From positions 1 to 64,000 of the forward strand of contig JAGBCL010000093.1 of the NCBI GenBank assembly GCA_018110825.1: a stretch of DNA of 64,000 nucleotides, given 5' to 3'. The stretch is from Oscillospiraceae bacterium (GTDB taxonomy: Bacteria > Bacillota > Clostridia > Oscillospirales > Ruminococcaceae). How positions within the stretch are numbered: position 1 is the stretch's first letter; each line of letters begins with the position of its first letter. The position numbers and the translations under genes are program-made. A model generated the notes under the pieces. It was not told the DNA's origin and searched no databases. It worked only from the letters and a program-made list of their open reading frames with translations. Shown piece by piece: positions 21,391 through 35,141 of the stretch.

Positions 21391-23355
21391 TTGTTTAGCA
21401 AGATAGATGAAAATTACGCTTTTGACGGGGAGCTCGGTGCACTTTACGAAAAAAATCAGACAGAATTCCGTGTCTGGGCACCTGAAGCTGACAAGGTTAC
21501 GGTGCATCTTTATCACGATTGCCGTGACGAAAAGCCTTACCGCAACCTGCCTATGACAAAGGGCAAGAACGGTGTATGGTCAAAGGTTGCACATGGCGAC
21601 CTTGATGGGGTATATTATACTTATGTGATGGAATATGACGGTATTGAGCAGGAAACTGTTGATATATATTCCCGCAGTGCAGGCGTAAACGGCACAATGG
21701 GTATGGTGCTTGACCTTGAAAGCTGTAATCCTGCGGGTTGGGAAAATCAGGACTATGTAAAGCTTGAACACCCTACCGACGCTTGTGTTTACGAGCTGCA
21801 CGTCCGTGACTTTTCCATTGACAAGAGCGGTAATTTCTGCTACAAGGGACGTTTTCTTGCGTTTATTGAAAACGGCGTTATAAATGCGGCAGGCGACAAA
21901 ATCGGTATCGACCACATCAAGGAGATGGGTGTTACTCACGTTCAGCTTATGCCGATTTTCGACTATGAAAGAATTGACGAAACAAATCTTCAAAAGCCGC
22001 AGTTCAACTGGGGATATGACCCGAGAAATTTCAATTCCCCCGAAGGCTCCTACTCCACAAACCCGTTTGACGGAAGAACAAGAGTTGCGGAGTTGAAAAG
22101 ACTTGTTTACGCACTTCACAGACAGGGCATCGGAGTAATAATGGACGTTGTTTACAACCACACATTTGCAACAGCTGACTCCTGCTTCAACAAGACTTAC
22201 CCTAAGTATTACTACAGACTCTGGGGCGAAAACGGCGAGTATTTCAGCAACGGAAGCGGCTGTGGAAACGAGTTTGCTACAGAACGTAAAATGGCAAGAA
22301 AGTTTATCGTTGACAGTATCTGCTACTGGGCAAAGGAATACAAGATTGACGGTTTCCGTTTTGACCTTATGGGACTTTACGATATTGAAACGTTGAATGA
22401 GATTTCCGCACGTCTTAAAGAAATCAACCCTAACGTAATTCTCTACGGTGAGGGCTGGACAGGCGGCGATTCCCCTGTAAGCTGGGAAAAGCGTGCGATG
22501 AAGCTTAATGCAAGACATACTCCCGATTACGGCTTTTTCAGTGATGATTTCCGTGATACGGTAAAGGGCAACAACTTTGAAAACCGTGACAGGGGTTATG
22601 TAAACGGTGCAAGCGGCAACGAGGAATACGTGAAGGAAGTAATGTGCGGAAGAATTCCTCACCCTCAGATTCCTAACCTGAAAAAGTTTGCATGGGCAGA
22701 CCACCCCGTGCAGGCGGTAAACTATGTTGAGGCGCACGATAATCTTACTCTCTGGGATAAGCTTTACTACACAAACGGCACTCAGAGTATTGAAACAAGA
22801 ATAAAAATGGACAAAATGGCTGCTGCTATGGTGTTCCTTGCGCAGGGTATACCGTTTATTCAGGCAGGACAGGAATTTCTCCGTTCAAAGCCTTTCCCCG
22901 GCGGCACGTCCTTTGACCATAACAGTTACAATTCCCCTGACGCCATCAACAGTCTGAAGTGGGACAGAAAGTCCGAGTACAAGGACGTTGTTGAGTATTA
23001 CAAGGGTCTGATTGCGTTCAGAAAGGCACACAAGGCGTTCAGAATGTACGACGGCATGGAAGTGGGCAAGAATATGCAGTTCCTTGATAAGCTTCCTCAG
23101 CGTGTGACAGGCTTTATTCTCCGCGGGGATAACGAATTCGAGGAGATTGTTGTTTTCTTCAACCCTAACGAGTACCCTGTTACCCTGTTCGCTTTCGGCA
23201 AGTACGGTGTATACATCGGTGACGGAAAGGCAGGTACAGAGCCTATCCGCTATGTTGAGGGTGAGTATACTGTTGAAGGACTTGATACTATTGTTCTTGC
23301 AAGAAAGTATCCGCAGCCTGAACCGGAGGTTTATGAGGGATTAGCAACTGACTAA
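21391..23355 (+). CDS. pulA: Type I pullulanase / alpha-glucan debranching enzyme (GH13)
   Basis: The 654-residue enzyme hydrolyses alpha-1,6 links in pullulan, glycogen or starch limit dextrins. It has an N-terminal CBM48-like domain (about 15-110, TEFRVWAPEADKVTVHLY). The GH13 barrel follows with ACVYELHVRDFSID, VIMDVVYNHT (region I), DGFRFDLMG (nucleophile Asp), LYGEGW (acid/base Glu) and YVEAHDNLTLWD (region IV). It has no signal peptide, so it is probably intracellular (glycogen turnover). The start is TTG with AAGGGG 8 bases upstream. The stop codon coincides with a repeat at 23353. Confidence 0.94.
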   Translation: MFSKIDENYAFDGELGALYEKNQTEFRVWAPEADKVTVHLYHDCRDEKPYRNLPMTKGKNGVWSKVAHGDLDGVYYTYVMEYDGIEQETVDIYSRSAGVNGTMGMVLDLESCNPAGWENQDYVKLEHPTDACVYELHVRDFSIDKSGNFCYKGRFLAFIENGVINAAGDKIGIDHIKEMGVTHVQLMPIFDYERIDETNLQKPQFNWGYDPRNFNSPEGSYSTNPFDGRTRVAELKRLVYALHRQGIGVIMDVVYNHTFATADSCFNKTYPKYYYRLWGENGEYFSNGSGCGNEFATERKMARKFIVDSICYWAKEYKIDGFRFDLMGLYDIETLNEISARLKEINPNVILYGEGWTGGDSPVSWEKRAMKLNARHTPDYGFFSDDFRDTVKGNNFENRDRGYVNGASGNEEYVKEVMCGRIPHPQIPNLKKFAWADHPVQAVNYVEAHDNLTLWDKLYYTNGTQSIETRIKMDKMAAAMVFLAQGIPFIQAGQEFLRSKPFPGGTSFDHNSYNSPDAINSLKWDRKSEYKDVVEYYKGLIAFRKAHKAFRMYDGMEVGKNMQFLDKLPQRVTGFILRGDNEFEEIVVFFNPNEYPVTLFAFGKYGVYIGDGKAGTEPIRYVEGEYTVEGLDTIVLARKYPQPEPEVYEGLATD

Positions 23356-23388
23356 TTCGGAGTGCGAAATGCGGAATTCGGAATTATA
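23353..23388 (+). repeat. Stop-codon-associated intergenic repeat, copy 1
   Basis: The sequence starts with TAATTCGG, whose TAA is the pullulanase stop codon, and continues with GGAATTCGGAATT. It belongs to the family also seen at 24252, 32235, 32648 (inverted) and 35052. Confidence 0.8.
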
Positions 23389-23423: not shown

Positions 23424-24254
23424 ATGAGCAAGATTTACGAAAGACTTGAAAAATGTTACAAGTGTTTCAGGGAGAAGATTGATTTTGTGCCTGATGTGGC
23501 ACTTATTCTCGGTTCTGGTCTGGGCGACTACGCCGACGGAATAAAGATTGAGGCAACTCTCGACTACGGCGAGATTGAGGGCTTCCCCAAGTCTACCGTT
23601 GCAGGTCACAAGGGTCGCTTTGTGTTCGGATATGTGGGCGACGTTAAGGTTGTAATAATGCAGGGTAGAGTCCACTACTATGAGGGATATCCTATGGAGG
23701 ACGTTGTTCTCCCTGTTCGTCTGATGAAGATGATGGGTGCAAAAATCCTGTTTCTGACCAATGCGGCAGGCGGCGTGAATTTTGATTACCACGCAGGCGA
23801 TTTTATGCTTATTTCCGACCAGATTTGCATGGCTCCGTCACCGCTTATCGGTGAGAATGCAGACGAGCTGGGCGTGCGTTTCCCTGATATGAGCAACATC
23901 TATAACCGTGACCTGAGAGCAATTGTACGCGAGGCGGCAAAGGATTTGGATATCCCGCTTCAGGAGGGCGTTTACATTCAGCTGACAGGCCCTAACTATG
24001 AGTCACCTGCTGAAATCAGAATGGTAAGAACTCTCGGTGCGGATGCAGTAGGTATGTCAACAGCCTGCGAGGCAATTGCGGCAAATCACGCAGGTATGAG
24101 GGTTGTGGGTATTTCCTGCATTTCCAATATGGCTTGCGGAATTACCGAAAATCCGCTTACACACGCAGAGGTGCAGGAAACAGCTGACAGGGTTGCACCG
24201 CTTTTCAAGAAGCTGGTTACCGAGTCGGTTATCAGATTGGGGAAAGAAGTTTAA
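23424..24254 (+). CDS. Purine nucleoside phosphorylase (type I trimeric)
   Basis: The 276-residue enzyme splits inosine or guanosine with phosphate into base and ribose 1-phosphate (purine salvage). Motifs are GSGLGD (30-35, phosphate site), GHKGRFVFG, MQGRVHYYEGY, LTNAAGGVN, the purine-site TGPNYESPAEIRM, and VGMSTACEA. The ATG at 23424 is chosen because GAAGGGAG lies 8 bases upstream. Its stop codon is the first three bases of another repeat copy. Confidence 0.95.
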   Translation: MSKIYERLEKCYKCFREKIDFVPDVALILGSGLGDYADGIKIEATLDYGEIEGFPKSTVAGHKGRFVFGYVGDVKVVIMQGRVHYYEGYPMEDVVLPVRLMKMMGAKILFLTNAAGGVNFDYHAGDFMLISDQICMAPSPLIGENADELGVRFPDMSNIYNRDLRAIVREAAKDLDIPLQEGVYIQLTGPNYESPAEIRMVRTLGADAVGMSTACEAIAANHAGMRVVGISCISNMACGITENPLTHAEVQETADRVAPLFKKLVTESVIRLGKEV

Positions 24255-24284
24255 TTCGGAATTCGGAATGCGTAATGCGGAATT
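24252..24284 (+). repeat. Stop-codon-associated intergenic repeat, copy 2
   Basis: It starts with TAATTCGG at the phosphorylase stop. Bases 24253-24284 are identical (32 of 32) to the reverse complement of 32648-32679, the right arm beside the four-helix-bundle pseudogene. Confidence 0.9.
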
Positions 24285-24326
24285 AGTTTGAGTTAACTCA
24301 TAAAGTTGGCAGATGAAAAGTTTCGT

Positions 24327-31289: not shown

Positions 31290-32237
31290 ATGGCATACAA
31301 GATTTTTATAGACGGTCAGGAAGGCACTACGGGACTTAAAATTATTGAGCGATTCAAGGACAGAACAGATGTTGAAATTCTTAAAATTGACGAGGATTTA
31401 AGAAAGAGTGCGGTAGAAAGAAAGCGTCTTATAAATGAGTCGGATTTCACTTTCCTCTGCCTGCCTGATGCGGCGGCTATCGAGTCGGTTTCACTGGTTG
31501 AAAACAAGAATACAAGAATTATCGACGCTTCCACAGCTCACAGAACAAATCCTGCGTGGGCTTACGGTCTGCCTGAGCTTTCACAGGCTCACAGGGACAA
31601 GATTGCAAATTCCAACAGAGTAGCTGTCCCCGGCTGTTACGCAAGCGGTTTCAATGCGGCACTTTATCCAATCGTGCAGGAGGGGCTTATTGCACCTTAT
31701 CACCCTATCATCTGTCATGCAGTTTCAGGCTACAGCGGTGCAGGCAAGAAGGCTATTGCCGTTTATGAGGGCGACAACAAGCCTGACGAGTACAACTCAC
31801 CAAGACAGTATTCCATGGGCAAGACCCATAAGCACATCAAGGAAATGATGGCTGTTTCGGGGCTTTCCTATCCGCCGATTTTCAATCCTATCGTTGACAA
31901 CTACTATAACGGTATGGTTGTTTCCATTCCGCTTCACCTCCGTGCAATGGCAAAGAAAACTTCCGCACAGCAGGTATGGGAGGTTATGGCTAAGCACTAC
32001 GAGGGACAGAATTTTGTAAAGGTTATGCCGTTTATGGGCGAGGGCGTACTTCAGGACGGCTTCCTTGCGGCTAATACACTTAAAAATACAAACCTTATGC
32101 AGATTTTCGTTTTCGGCAACGACGACCACGTACTGCTCTGCTCACGTCTTGACAACCTCGGTAAGGGTGCAAGCGGTGCGGCTGTGCAGTGTATGAATAT
32201 TATGATGGGAATTGACGAAACAACAGGCTTAATTTAA
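31290..32237 (+). CDS. argC: N-acetyl-gamma-glutamyl-phosphate reductase (short type)
   Basis: The 315-residue NADPH enzyme reduces N-acetylglutamyl phosphate to the semialdehyde. It belongs to the shorter ArgC group. It has a Rossmann start (YKIFIDGQEGTTGLKI), STAHRTNPAWAYGLPEL, and the catalytic Cys116 in VPGCYASGF. HLRAM and the C-terminal DNLGKGASGAAVQ are conserved. The stop codon is the first triplet of a repeat that flanks the inserted four-helix-bundle gene. Confidence 0.96.
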   Translation: MAYKIFIDGQEGTTGLKIIERFKDRTDVEILKIDEDLRKSAVERKRLINESDFTFLCLPDAAAIESVSLVENKNTRIIDASTAHRTNPAWAYGLPELSQAHRDKIANSNRVAVPGCYASGFNAALYPIVQEGLIAPYHPIICHAVSGYSGAGKKAIAVYEGDNKPDEYNSPRQYSMGKTHKHIKEMMAVSGLSYPPIFNPIVDNYYNGMVVSIPLHLRAMAKKTSAQQVWEVMAKHYEGQNFVKVMPFMGEGVLQDGFLAANTLKNTNLMQIFVFGNDDHVLLCSRLDNLGKGASGAAVQCMNIMMGIDETTGLI

Positions 32238-32267
32238 TTCGGAGTTCGGAATGCGGAATTCGGAATT
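32235..32267 (+). repeat. Stop-codon-associated repeat, left arm of inverted pair
   Basis: It begins TAATTCGG at the argC stop and continues GGAATGCGGAATTCGG. With 32648-32680 it forms an inverted pair bracketing the pseudogene. Confidence 0.88.
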
Positions 32268-32286
32268 AAACGGGTGAAATAACATT

Positions 32287-32649
32287 ATGAAGTCAGATAA
32301 TGTAATTGTTGACAAAAGTAAAGTTTTTGCGTTGAGAATTATAAAACTGTATAAATATTTACTTTCAGAAAAGAAAGAATATGTTCTTTCAAAGCAGGTA
32401 TTACGAAGCGGTACAAGTATAGGTGCAAATGTCAAAGAAGCGATAAGAGGTCAAAGCAAAGCTGATTTTTATGCTAAAATGAATATTGCATTGAAGTAAG
32501 CAAGTGAAACCGAATATTGGCTTAAACTACTCGGAGAGAGTGGATATATTGAGAAAATACATTTTGACAGTATGAATTTGGATTGTCAGGAATTGATAAG
32601 CATTTTAGTTGCAATAACAAAAACGCAGAAAAATGCTAATTCAAAATAA
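32287..32649 (+). pseudogene. Four-helix bundle (23S rRNA intervening-sequence, S23-type) protein, interrupted
   Basis: A 120-codon frame encodes a four-helix-bundle protein of the type found in 23S rRNA intervening sequences. The N-terminal part reads SKVFALRIIKLYKYL and LRSGTSIGANVKEAIRGQSKADFYAKM. A TAA at 32497-32499 interrupts it exactly where the family usually has Glu in ALKEAS, and the frame continues with SETEYWLKLLGESGYI to the natural stop at 32647. A single G-to-T change of GAA explains the break. It is bracketed by inverted repeats. Family function is unclear. Only the N-terminal 70 residues could be made without readthrough. Confidence 0.87.
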
Positions 32650-32680
32650 TTCCGCATTACGCATTCCGAATTCCGAATTT
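32648..32680 (-). repeat. Right arm of inverted pair, same repeat family
   Basis: Read on the minus strand it is AATTCGGAATTCGGAATGCG and onward, identical over 32 bases to 24253-24284. It starts one base inside the pseudogene stop codon, so here too a TAA is contiguous with the repeat. The ribosome site of argJ follows within about 10 bases. Confidence 0.9.
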
Positions 32681-32704: not shown

Positions 32705-33928
32705 ATGAATATTATTGACGGCGGCGTGTGTGCCGCAAAGGGTTTCAAGGCAAGCGGTCTTTACTGCGGCATCAAGGAGAACCCTACAAAGAAGAATGAC
32801 ATCTGTCTGATTGTTTCGGACGTTATGTGCAACGCGGCTGGTGTGTACACCTCCAACAAGGTCAAGGGTGCGCCTGTTGTTGTTACAAAGAACAATCTTG
32901 CAAAAAGCGGCGGCAAGGCTATGGCTGTTATTGCAAACTCAAAGAATGCCAACACCTGCAACGCTGACGGCGAGGAAAAGGCACTGGAAATGTGTAAGCT
33001 TACTGCTGACGCTTTAGGTATCGCACCTGAACAGGTTATCGTTGCTTCAACCGGTGTAATCGGTCAGATTCTGCCTATCGAGCCAATCCGTGAGGCTGTT
33101 CCTGAGCTTGTGAAGAAGCTTTCCTACGAGGGCAATCTTGAGGCTGCAACTGCTATTATGACAACCGACACAGTGAAGAAGGAGTACGCTGTTGAATTTG
33201 AAATCGGCGGCAAGCTCTGCAAAATGGGCGGTATGGCAAAGGGAAGCGGTATGATTCACCCTAACATGGCTACAACCCTCAACTTCATCACAACAGACTG
33301 TGCAATTTCTGCTGAACTTCTCCAGAAGGCACTTTCTGAAATCGTGAAGATTACATATAACTGTCTTTCCGTTGACGGCGACCAGTCCACAAACGACACC
33401 TGTATGCTGATGTCATCGGGACTTGCTGAAAATGCTGAAATCACTGAGGAAAACGCTGATTTTGCTACATTCAAGGACGCTCTCTATCAGGTTATGGCAA
33501 ACCTTACAAGAATGCTTGCAAAGGACGGCGAGGGTGCAACAAAGCTTCTTACCTGCGTTTGCTCCTCTGCACCTGACCTTGATACAGCTATCATCGTTGC
33601 AAAGAGCGTAATCCGTTCTCCGCTGTTCAAGTGTGCAATGTTCGGTGCTGACGCTAACTGGGGACGTGTTCTCTGTGCAATCGGTTATGCTGAGGCTGAT
33701 TTCGACATTACAAAGGTTGATGTTGACCTTGCTTCTAAGGCTGGAAGAATTGCAGTTTGCCGCAACGGTGCAGGCGTGGAATTCTCCGAGGACGAGGCAA
33801 AGGTTGTTCTTACTGAGGACGAAATTGAAATTTATATTGAGCTTAATTCTGGCGACGCAAAGGCTACGGCATGGGGCTGTGACCTTACTTATGATTACGT
33901 TAAGATTAACGGAGATTATCGTTCATAA
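32705..33928 (+). CDS. argJ: Bifunctional ornithine acetyltransferase / N-acetylglutamate synthase
   Basis: The 407-residue precursor cuts itself into two chains. The cut lies between Ala189 and Thr190 in HPNMATTLNF, and the new Thr is the nucleophile. It moves acetyl from acetylornithine to glutamate, so the pathway recycles acetyl. Other marks are CNAAGVYTSNKVKGAP, ANSKNANTCNA, TGVIGQ and TNDTCMLMSSG. No separate argA is seen in the window. AAGGAG lies 11 bases upstream, abutting the repeat arm. Confidence 0.98.
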   Translation: MNIIDGGVCAAKGFKASGLYCGIKENPTKKNDICLIVSDVMCNAAGVYTSNKVKGAPVVVTKNNLAKSGGKAMAVIANSKNANTCNADGEEKALEMCKLTADALGIAPEQVIVASTGVIGQILPIEPIREAVPELVKKLSYEGNLEAATAIMTTDTVKKEYAVEFEIGGKLCKMGGMAKGSGMIHPNMATTLNFITTDCAISAELLQKALSEIVKITYNCLSVDGDQSTNDTCMLMSSGLAENAEITEENADFATFKDALYQVMANLTRMLAKDGEGATKLLTCVCSSAPDLDTAIIVAKSVIRSPLFKCAMFGADANWGRVLCAIGYAEADFDITKVDVDLASKAGRIAVCRNGAGVEFSEDEAKVVLTEDEIEIYIELNSGDAKATAWGCDLTYDYVKINGDYRS

Positions 33929-34519: not shown

Positions 34520-35054
34520 TACAATCCGTAATATTACAGTAAAATTCAATCGTCACCTTGAAGTTGGCGAACATATTGTGTGGTGCGGAAGGGCACTTGC
34601 GAGTACTGAAAGCAACGGGCAAAAGGGTGCAAAGGCGTATACAATTTTCTTTGCGACAATATGGACAGCCTTTGCATTATTCTGGACGTTCAGCGTGTTT
34701 ACCATGGGCGGCGGTATGATGGGATTTTTCGGTGTGCCATTTATAATTATTGGTATATTTCTTTTCATCAAGGCATTTACCGTAACCAGGTCAAGGGCTT
34801 ATTTTGCGGTAACGAATATGCGTATTCTTACAGATGCGGGACGTGGCCTTGAAATGGAGTATCTGACGAATATCACTTCCGTCCGTACAAACGAAAACGG
34901 CAAAAAGGCTGACGTGTTCTATTCCATTGAGTACCAGGGCGAACATGGCGTAATCGGTGCAGGCGGCGGAATATGCGGACTTGACCCGGAGGAAGCGGAG
35001 AATGTGCGGTACATAATTGAAAGCGAAAGTGCAAAGGCACATATGTATAGTTAA
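34503..35054 (+). CDS. Membrane protein with bacterial PH-like domain
   Basis: The 183-residue product has a short N-terminal segment (LEVGEHIVWCGRA), two membrane helices (about 45-85) and a PH-like domain (RAYFAVTNMRIL, then EYLTNITSV) typical of small DUF-type membrane proteins. Function unknown. It overlaps the preceding gene by 17 bp, and its stop codon begins a repeat copy at 35052. Confidence 0.8.
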   Translation: MKRRDDTIRNITVKFNRHLEVGEHIVWCGRALASTESNGQKGAKAYTIFFATIWTAFALFWTFSVFTMGGGMMGFFGVPFIIIGIFLFIKAFTVTRSRAYFAVTNMRILTDAGRGLEMEYLTNITSVRTNENGKKADVFYSIEYQGEHGVIGAGGGICGLDPEEAENVRYIIESESAKAHMYS

Positions 35055-35119
35055 TTCGGAATTAGGAATGCGGAATTAGGAATTATAATTTCACTTTCCA
35101 CTTTTCAAATTCCACATTT
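35052..35119 (+). repeat. Stop-codon-associated intergenic repeat, copy 5
   Basis: It begins TAATTCGG at the stop codon and continues GGAATTAGGAATGCGG. It then runs into TTTCACTTTCCACTTTTC, a phrase shared with the element at 4520-4666. The argB ribosome site follows. Confidence 0.8.
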
Positions 35120-35141
35120 ATAGATAGAAGGAGAAAAGAAA

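Follow-up and report, generated by a model that had tools for sequence, protein, structure and literature searches.

The window analysed here (i.e. the whole stretch of 64,000 nucleotides of contig JAGBCL010000093.1, from an Oscillospiraceae bacterium) holds, between the host genes argC and argJ, a pseudogene of the S23 (23S_rRNA_IVP) four-helix-bundle type that is bracketed by two mirrored arrays of short tandem repeats (Table 1). The frame between these arms matches PF05635 in two pieces with a TAA in between (5.2e-16 and 4e-05) and also matches TIGR02436, and taken as a whole, with its one internal TAA, it scores 94.1 bits against PF05635 (cut-off 33.8), which makes it a member of the S23 family. 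A preliminary description of the locus had proposed an S23-type gene at this place, flanked by 33-nt inverted repeats and inactivated by one stop codon, all of which is borne out; in the sister genome G004, S23 is found as a partial match only. The arms are 33 nt each, with 378 nt between them, where the only ORFs of at least 60 aa are a piece of S23 and one antisense frame. There is little room in the element for another enzyme.

Table 1 Positions of the S23 element, its host genes and the further arrays in the window
Feature	Position	Strand	Remarks
argC, host gene upstream	31290..32237	+	name from preliminary description and by eye
Left arm	32236..32268	+	AATTCGG AGTTCGG AATGCGG AATTCGG AATTA; overlaps argC stop TAA (32235-32237)
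S23 / 23S_rRNA_IVP four-helix-bundle pseudogene	32287..32649	+	own end TAA (32647-32649) overlaps right arm
Premature in-frame TAA in S23 frame	32497..32499	+	
Right arm (left array inverted)	32647..32679	-	AATTCGG AATTCGG AATGCGT AATGCGG AATTA on minus strand
argJ, host gene downstream	32705..33928	+	name from preliminary description and by eye
Solo array	23354..23386	+	begins on stop codon of 654-aa gene (glycogen-debranching-like by eye)
Solo array	24253..24285	+	begins on stop codon of 282-aa gene (purine-nucleoside-phosphorylase-like by eye)
Solo array	35053..35085	+	begins on stop codon of 183-aa ORF, before argB (name by eye)

Both arms consist of four 7-bp units followed by AATTA and, being tandem, intergenic 7-bp repeats, the arrays of the window belong to the heptameric simple-sequence repeats (SSRs). 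All five copies in the window, including the one at the end of the S23 frame itself, start on the TAA stop codon of the preceding gene. This start on stop codons and the tandem 7-mer make-up go beyond the preliminary description, which had also reported solo copies of the repeat, of which there are indeed three. Among the periodic stretches in the window, a lag of 7 occurs five times, a lag of 12 four times and a lag of 6 once, with none at the other lags from 4 to 11. In the predicted RNA fold of the element the arms pair and S23 lies in the loop (-123.2 kcal/mol, compared to -89.5 +/- 5.0 for 100 shuffles, z -6.75). With its S23 ORF between ends that are 91% complementary and pair in the RNA fold, the element has the plan of an rRNA intervening sequence (IVS), whereas its location between argC and argJ is outside rRNA, and it is therefore a variant of the IVS kind.

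In the genome to which the window belongs (G000), 26 matches to a 25-nt form of the arm pattern were found (at most 3 mismatches, with overlapping registers of one array counted apart), compared to none for the reversed pattern, which means that the arm copies are not due to chance. A second S23 gene of this genome (L001) has mirrored arms of a different unit (score 33), and the intact S23 of the genome has 2rld as its only PDB match (E up to 0.01). Right behind the solo array at 35053, at 35086-35120, an inverted array AATTTCACTTTCCACTTTTCAAATTCC was seen by eye that is like the L001 arms. A gene-less derivative is present at L001 3119-3200, where a mirrored pair of L001-type arrays is separated by a few bases only and has no S23 match inside.

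Among the 20 genus genomes with an ArgC match (some of them incomplete), the match coordinates of S23 and ArgC place S23 beside argC in four (G000, G003, G004 and G010) and elsewhere in five, while in 11 no S23 was found; by eye, it is also beside argC in G022, which belongs to another genus. Matches to the window-type unit (at most 1 mismatch, registers counted apart) occur in 8 of 9 S23-positive genus genomes versus 1 of 12 S23-negative ones (Fisher p 0.0004), where completeness varies and S23 types were judged by eye. They are numerous where an open S23 of the matching type is present (G003 108, G010 62, G015 165, G019 36) and amount to 16 in G000 and 17 in G004, where S23 is broken or partial. 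G005 (48), G017 (22) and G020 (3) have unit matches with no S23 of the matching type found, and G008 has an S23 gene and no window-type arrays. The reversed-pattern control gave 0 in G000, G004 and G020, 1 in G003 and G005, 7 in G010, 18 in G015, 5 in G019 and 4 in G017. No match to the window-type array was obtained in 12 of the 21 genus genomes. The window's own genome has a broken cognate S23 and retains few array matches (16).

Whether mirrored arms are a general property of S23 genes was addressed with 152 further loci (the window's own excluded), 72 of them from genomes of the window's own phylum, among the matches listed, and 80 being the best 80 of 467 database matches, from about a dozen phyla with one archaeal record; L033 was dropped for its short flank, leaving 151. 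A mirrored flank pair scoring at least 30 is present at 110 of these 151 loci, with a unit that differs between loci, compared to 0 of 129 for the distal flanks of the same loci (best 26) and 26 of 755 for left and right flanks taken from different loci. At a score of 36 this becomes 85 loci versus 0 distal and 15 mismatched pairs, and at 40, 64 versus 0 and 10, the mismatched count probably being above zero because related loci share units. No arms at score 30 were found in the other 41 loci, which include much of the SGTSIGANIHE-like clade (by eye), and the one archaeal locus scored 29. Short periods were clear in 58 of 151 left and 58 of 151 right flanks (not in the remaining 93 on either side), compared to 5 of 280 distal flanks. 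The period is 7 in 36 left and 40 right flanks, 14 in 6 and 7, 8 or 9 (by eye mostly Bacteroidales) in 9 and 6, and another in 7 and 5. An earlier test with a crude motif finder, in which 13 of the 72 loci were lost and 2 more excluded for short flanks, had placed 28 of 57 loci above the 99% control level and is replaced by the 151-locus test. Six cyanobacterial plasmid records (about four of them distinct, out of 34 with an S23 match) all have mirrored arms, with scores of 38-53; AGTCAGG-like arms occur in the cyanobacterial plasmid type. From arm to arm, the median element length is 469 nt. The median dN/dS in 26 S23 pairs, which overlap and include some loci without arms, is 0.10 (maximum 0.15), and by this measure the S23 protein is evidently under purifying selection.

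Some loci depart from the plain heptamer pattern: at L079, L087, L088 and L099, of another S23 clade, the mirrored flanks have a short unit alternating with small hairpins, and at L123 and L126 the arms look like 11-12-nt units (GTTAAACGATA-like). At L072, L077 and L078, a tRNA gene lies directly downstream of the S23 gene, on the same strand.

The unit of the arms follows the lineage of the protein. Across the 110 loci, arm similarity correlates with S23 identity both between phyla (Spearman 0.334 versus 0.140 +/- 0.043 permuted, 0 of 1000) and within phyla (0.524 versus 0.287 +/- 0.025, 0 of 1000), with arms permuted within each phylum as the null; phyla were assigned from record annotation, and loci of the window's own phylum were pooled under Bacillota, a phylum name that was inferred. 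Between phyla, arm similarity climbs with S23 identity, from 0.034 up to 0.335 in the top bin of 20 pairs, while the outside flanks (15-60 nt beyond the arms) stay flat at 0.076-0.098 and the 3' end of the gene at 0.124-0.150. A single case is that of L119 and L186 (taken as Bacillota and Acidobacteria), whose arms have an identity of 91% over 33 nt and of 94% over 32 nt, and among whose four best DNA matches one alone is coding (68 nt at 75%), although mis-binned contigs could inflate single cross-phylum cases of this kind. Since the arms are alike across phyla and the coding DNA hardly so, the unit seems to be kept against drift together with its protein.

Occupied and empty sites can be compared in cyanobacterial plasmids that are 96-98% identical and differ by a ~420-nt element behind a stop codon. 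In two records of Trichormus variabilis and in Scytonema plasmids, an S23 element adjoins a TrbI/VirB10 gene, and six plasmid records of 97.5-97.8% identity are 428 nt shorter at this site (both of the two inspected are empty), while a Nostoc plasmid retains a piece of the S23 gene there. The empty site reads AAAAAGTAATTAAC, and in the occupied one the 420-nt insert is preceded by GTAATAAA and followed by GTAATTAA, so that GTAAT, with the stop codon included, stands on both sides (5 nt exact, 8 with one mismatch). In plasmids a and c of Nostoc ATCC 53789, S23 elements lie behind two successive genes of one cluster, and plasmid b is empty there. Compared to the empty plasmid of Nostoc C052, the first of these elements is flanked by TTCTA at either end, and the second shows 3 nt plus extra sequence; compared to plasmid b, the first gives no clean junction. 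In Calothrix brevissima, the element replaces 10-11 nt behind an integrase gene, relative to three empty relatives. Direct repeats at the four plasmid sites are therefore 5 exact nt in two, 3 nt in one and none in one (the one with 10-11 nt lost), and at the array ends of the genus no direct repeat of at least 3 nt was found in 36 of 53 arrays. A fixed target duplication was accordingly rejected as a general feature.

Insertions are also found in structural RNAs. In the RNase P RNA of G267 and G339 the element stands in place of a hairpin tip, presumably that of P12, which is kept in G304 of the same genus. S23 matches lie inside 23S rRNA in G275, G333 and G396 (as fragments), G277 and G485, and 23S rRNA copies have 7-mer arms (L118 with a score of 50, L124 with 35, L129 mirrored by eye) at a place that is presumably helix 45. 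Furthermore, of 26 S23 pairs with at least 75% DNA identity, 9 have neither flank in common; five of these pairs come from four related loci, and two involve loci without arms at score 30. The match between L114 and L117 begins a little inward of the left arm and extends to the right arm, and that between L184 and L203 runs from arm to arm. Many copies lie close behind stop codons: the left arm lies within 60 nt of an upstream same-strand stop codon in 84 of 110 loci and within 15 nt in 68 (counts that stand without a control rate), and of 42 arrays on contigs from the genus and from G022, 19 start at most 1 nt from a stop codon versus 128 of 16000 random places (23 of 42 versus 531 of 16000 for at most 6 nt). 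By these comparisons the S23 element evidently moves.

The small mobile unit of protein plus ends that the preliminary description had suggested is thus favoured by the comparative data, and none of the outcomes named there as speaking against it (the gene at this site in all related strains, no other such genes flanked by the repeat, or no empty sites) was encountered. As to the empty sites, these exist in RNase P RNA and in plasmids, whereas at argC-argJ there are junctions without S23 and, among the relatives' junctions, none that represents the exact pre-insertion site. In the argC-argJ interval of L050-L054, other small genes, by eye HicB-like and YjbR-like, lie behind argC, and some of them are accompanied by 7-mer arrays with different units. 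This position behind argC may be a hot spot.

Arrays also occur without S23. Among neighbouring arrays less than 700 nt apart, 11 pairs are convergent, 0 divergent and 7 direct, in sequence stretches many of which were chosen for holding arrays; the arrays on genus contigs mostly have four units. Only 3 of the 11 convergent pairs (in the window, G003 and G022) have S23 inside, and in the other 8 none was detected by tblastn (ten segments, two of other unit types), in agreement with the non-autonomous derivatives that had been proposed. Other genes take the place of S23 in some arrangements, namely a peptidyl-tRNA-hydrolase-like gene followed by an array, a DUF3781 gene and an array, and a recG-like gene followed by arrays, a DUF6487 gene and an array (host gene names by eye). 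In G003, two related ORFs without a Pfam match lie between S23 and argJ, each followed by an array. On contig 33 of G003 (L259-L266) a second 7-mer family, ATGAATAGTGAATATTGAATAATGAA, is found in mirrored pairs whose outer flanks resemble one another, as would parts of a longer repeated element, and at L274 (G003 C36, 16219-16348) an 18-unit expanded array lies beside three- and four-unit arrays.

In the sister species G003, arrays are found at the positions that correspond to all five array sites of the window, with flanks that are about 80-97% identical; the counterpart of the right arm is an array beside the two extra ORFs. Between the units of the two species, which come from sites that are not independent of one another, positions 1-6 differ in 8 of 120 cases and position 7 in 18 of 20, with G in 17 of 20 in the window versus C or T in 20 of 20 in G003 (Fisher 2.6e-8). 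Over the sequence of G003 examined, the seventh base is T in 69, C in 55, A in 2 and G in 0 units. Either the arrays are rewritten in place, or a common reader has changed and selection has followed; position 4 of the unit does not separate the two.

Of the enzymes that might move such arrays, two were searched for in the genus by profile, namely Y1 transposase (PF01797) and reverse transcriptase (RVT_1, PF00078). The window arrays resemble REPIN/RAYT systems and MITEs in their dispersed solo and mirrored short repeats, but the ends of the S23 class are tandem arrays, and Y1 transposase is matched in 4 of 21 genus genomes only, with no match in the other 17, which include G000, G003, G004, G005, G010 and G019. 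A RAYT/Y1 transposase was rejected as the mover on that account, and the array-rich genomes do not qualify as REPIN/RAYT systems. Seven of the 21 genus genomes have an RVT_1 match, and four of these, including G000, are among the nine that bear arrays, so that an enzyme in trans is possible there. Both profiles are without a match in G005 and G010, two genomes that are 99% complete and have 48 and 62 array matches, respectively, and a reverse transcriptase as a general requirement was therefore rejected. Diversity-generating retroelements offer a likeness, in that PF05635 is described as resembling Avd (in the accessible text of PMC10053308) and repeats are possibly changed in place; they combine a reverse transcriptase with an Avd-like gene, and G005 and G010 differ from them in having no RVT_1 match.

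Following these results, the feature in the window is taken, with a probability of roughly 70%, to be an inactivated S23 element of a wide class of mobile units of ~400-500 nt, in which an S23 gene lies between mirrored tandem arrays, usually of 7 bp. The best reading of the class is that of a protein-plus-ends mobile element without a catalytic enzyme of its own. As judged from sequence comparison, it spans many bacterial phyla and is placed behind stop codons, in 23S rRNA and in RNase P RNA, and the same comparison establishes the plan, the match of arm unit to S23 lineage, occupied and empty sites, purifying selection, array-only and other-gene derivatives and the joint change between species. 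Counting against this reading are the arrays of G005, G017 and G020 with no matching-type S23, the S23 of G008 with no arrays, the dead S23 gene of the window, and the fact that mobility is deduced from comparison. Since genes of the DUF3781 and DUF6487 types are bracketed by arrays as well, S23 might be a passenger too, with the arrays as the mobile thing and an enzyme in trans as their mover. This is unlikely, if a serious contender: the two related G003 ORFs are bracketed on a like plan, 8 of the 11 close array pairs are without S23, and G005 has its 48 matches without a matching S23, but the arms are present at S23 genes of many phyla, a tie between arm unit and S23 lineage that holds across phyla would hardly be expected of a mere passenger, and neither of the two enzyme profiles searched is matched in G005 and G010.

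It is rather improbable that the arrays belong to the host, as hairpins at mRNA 3' ends or as sites of processing or protein binding, with S23 as a domesticated partner and nothing moved recently. Their place just behind genes, the purifying selection on S23 and the arrays at all five window sites in G003 would fit this, and a shared binding factor could also account for the joint base change; against it stand the plasmids that are occupied or empty at 96-98% identity, the insertions in RNase P and 23S rRNA, the 12 genus genomes with no match to the window array and related S23 genes in unrelated flanks. Replication slippage, with an accidental pairing of simple-sequence repeats and S23, is hardly credible, even though 7-mers are a known over-represented class of SSRs in bacteria (accessible text of PMC4692102) and one plasmid element is on record in two versions whose left arrays differ by two units, because the mirrored orientation and the within-locus match are far above controls, most genus-contig arrays have four units, and convergent pairs outnumber divergent ones by 11 to 0.

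For the mobile S23 element, it could be envisaged that the array of a given element is recognised by the S23 protein of that element, the most likely substrate being the hairpin RNA or single strand formed on pairing of the two arms, and that the protein brings in a host enzyme by which the unit is inserted or arrays are copied. A site behind a stop codon or in an RNA loop would keep the element nearly harmless and would allow it to be transcribed together with the host gene. A more far-reaching version, which is held tentatively and at somewhat below even odds, is that S23 proteins are the specificity factors of a phylum-spanning mobile class free of catalytic enzymes, in which each lineage reads its own array, directs insertion behind stops or into RNA loops and maintains uniformity among the arrays of a genome through rewriting in place; the IVSs of rRNA and many unexplained heptamer repeats of bacteria would then be two faces of one system, whose arrays also move unrelated small genes.

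In the accessible text of PMC4990558, IVSs are called selfish elements for which mobility is proposed, and a published IVS has 2-3 tandem heptamers before its S23p ORF. The likeness to the present class thus lies in an S23 gene between complementary ends and in tandem heptamers, and the difference in location, since the copy in the window lies between protein genes and the class is also found in RNase P RNA and behind stop codons; that part of the IVS account mentions neither an array rule nor its agreement with the S23 lineage. ORFs of the 23S_rRNA_IVP type are reported in 16S and 23S rRNA of CPR bacteria (accessible part of PMC11270868). By their published description, as far as accessible in PMC4692102, the heptameric SSRs of Xanthomonas and Nostoc have 7-bp, intergenic units close behind the 5' ORF, with many convergent pairs and, in Xanthomonas, mostly four units, and are treated as G-quadruplex repeats; the arrays of the window are like them in unit length, place and orientation. 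A term search found no S23 in the text of that paper, and in the open-access literature searched no paper was found in which S23 genes are linked to RNase P or, as a general matter, to heptamer arrays. If the far-reaching version is true, rRNA IVSs and over-represented heptamer repeats, the origin of both being without consensus in the literature consulted, receive one common cause, and a mobile element with no nuclease, recombinase or polymerase of its own, whose sites change together genome-wide, calls for a mechanism not found described in the literature searched. The role of S23 becomes testable, as each gene brings its own predicted binding site.

S23-type arrays might be mistaken for CRISPR repeats. 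In the accessible part of a published CRISPR search (PMC10910872), 23S rRNA IVP appears in a figure of CRISPR-linked domains.
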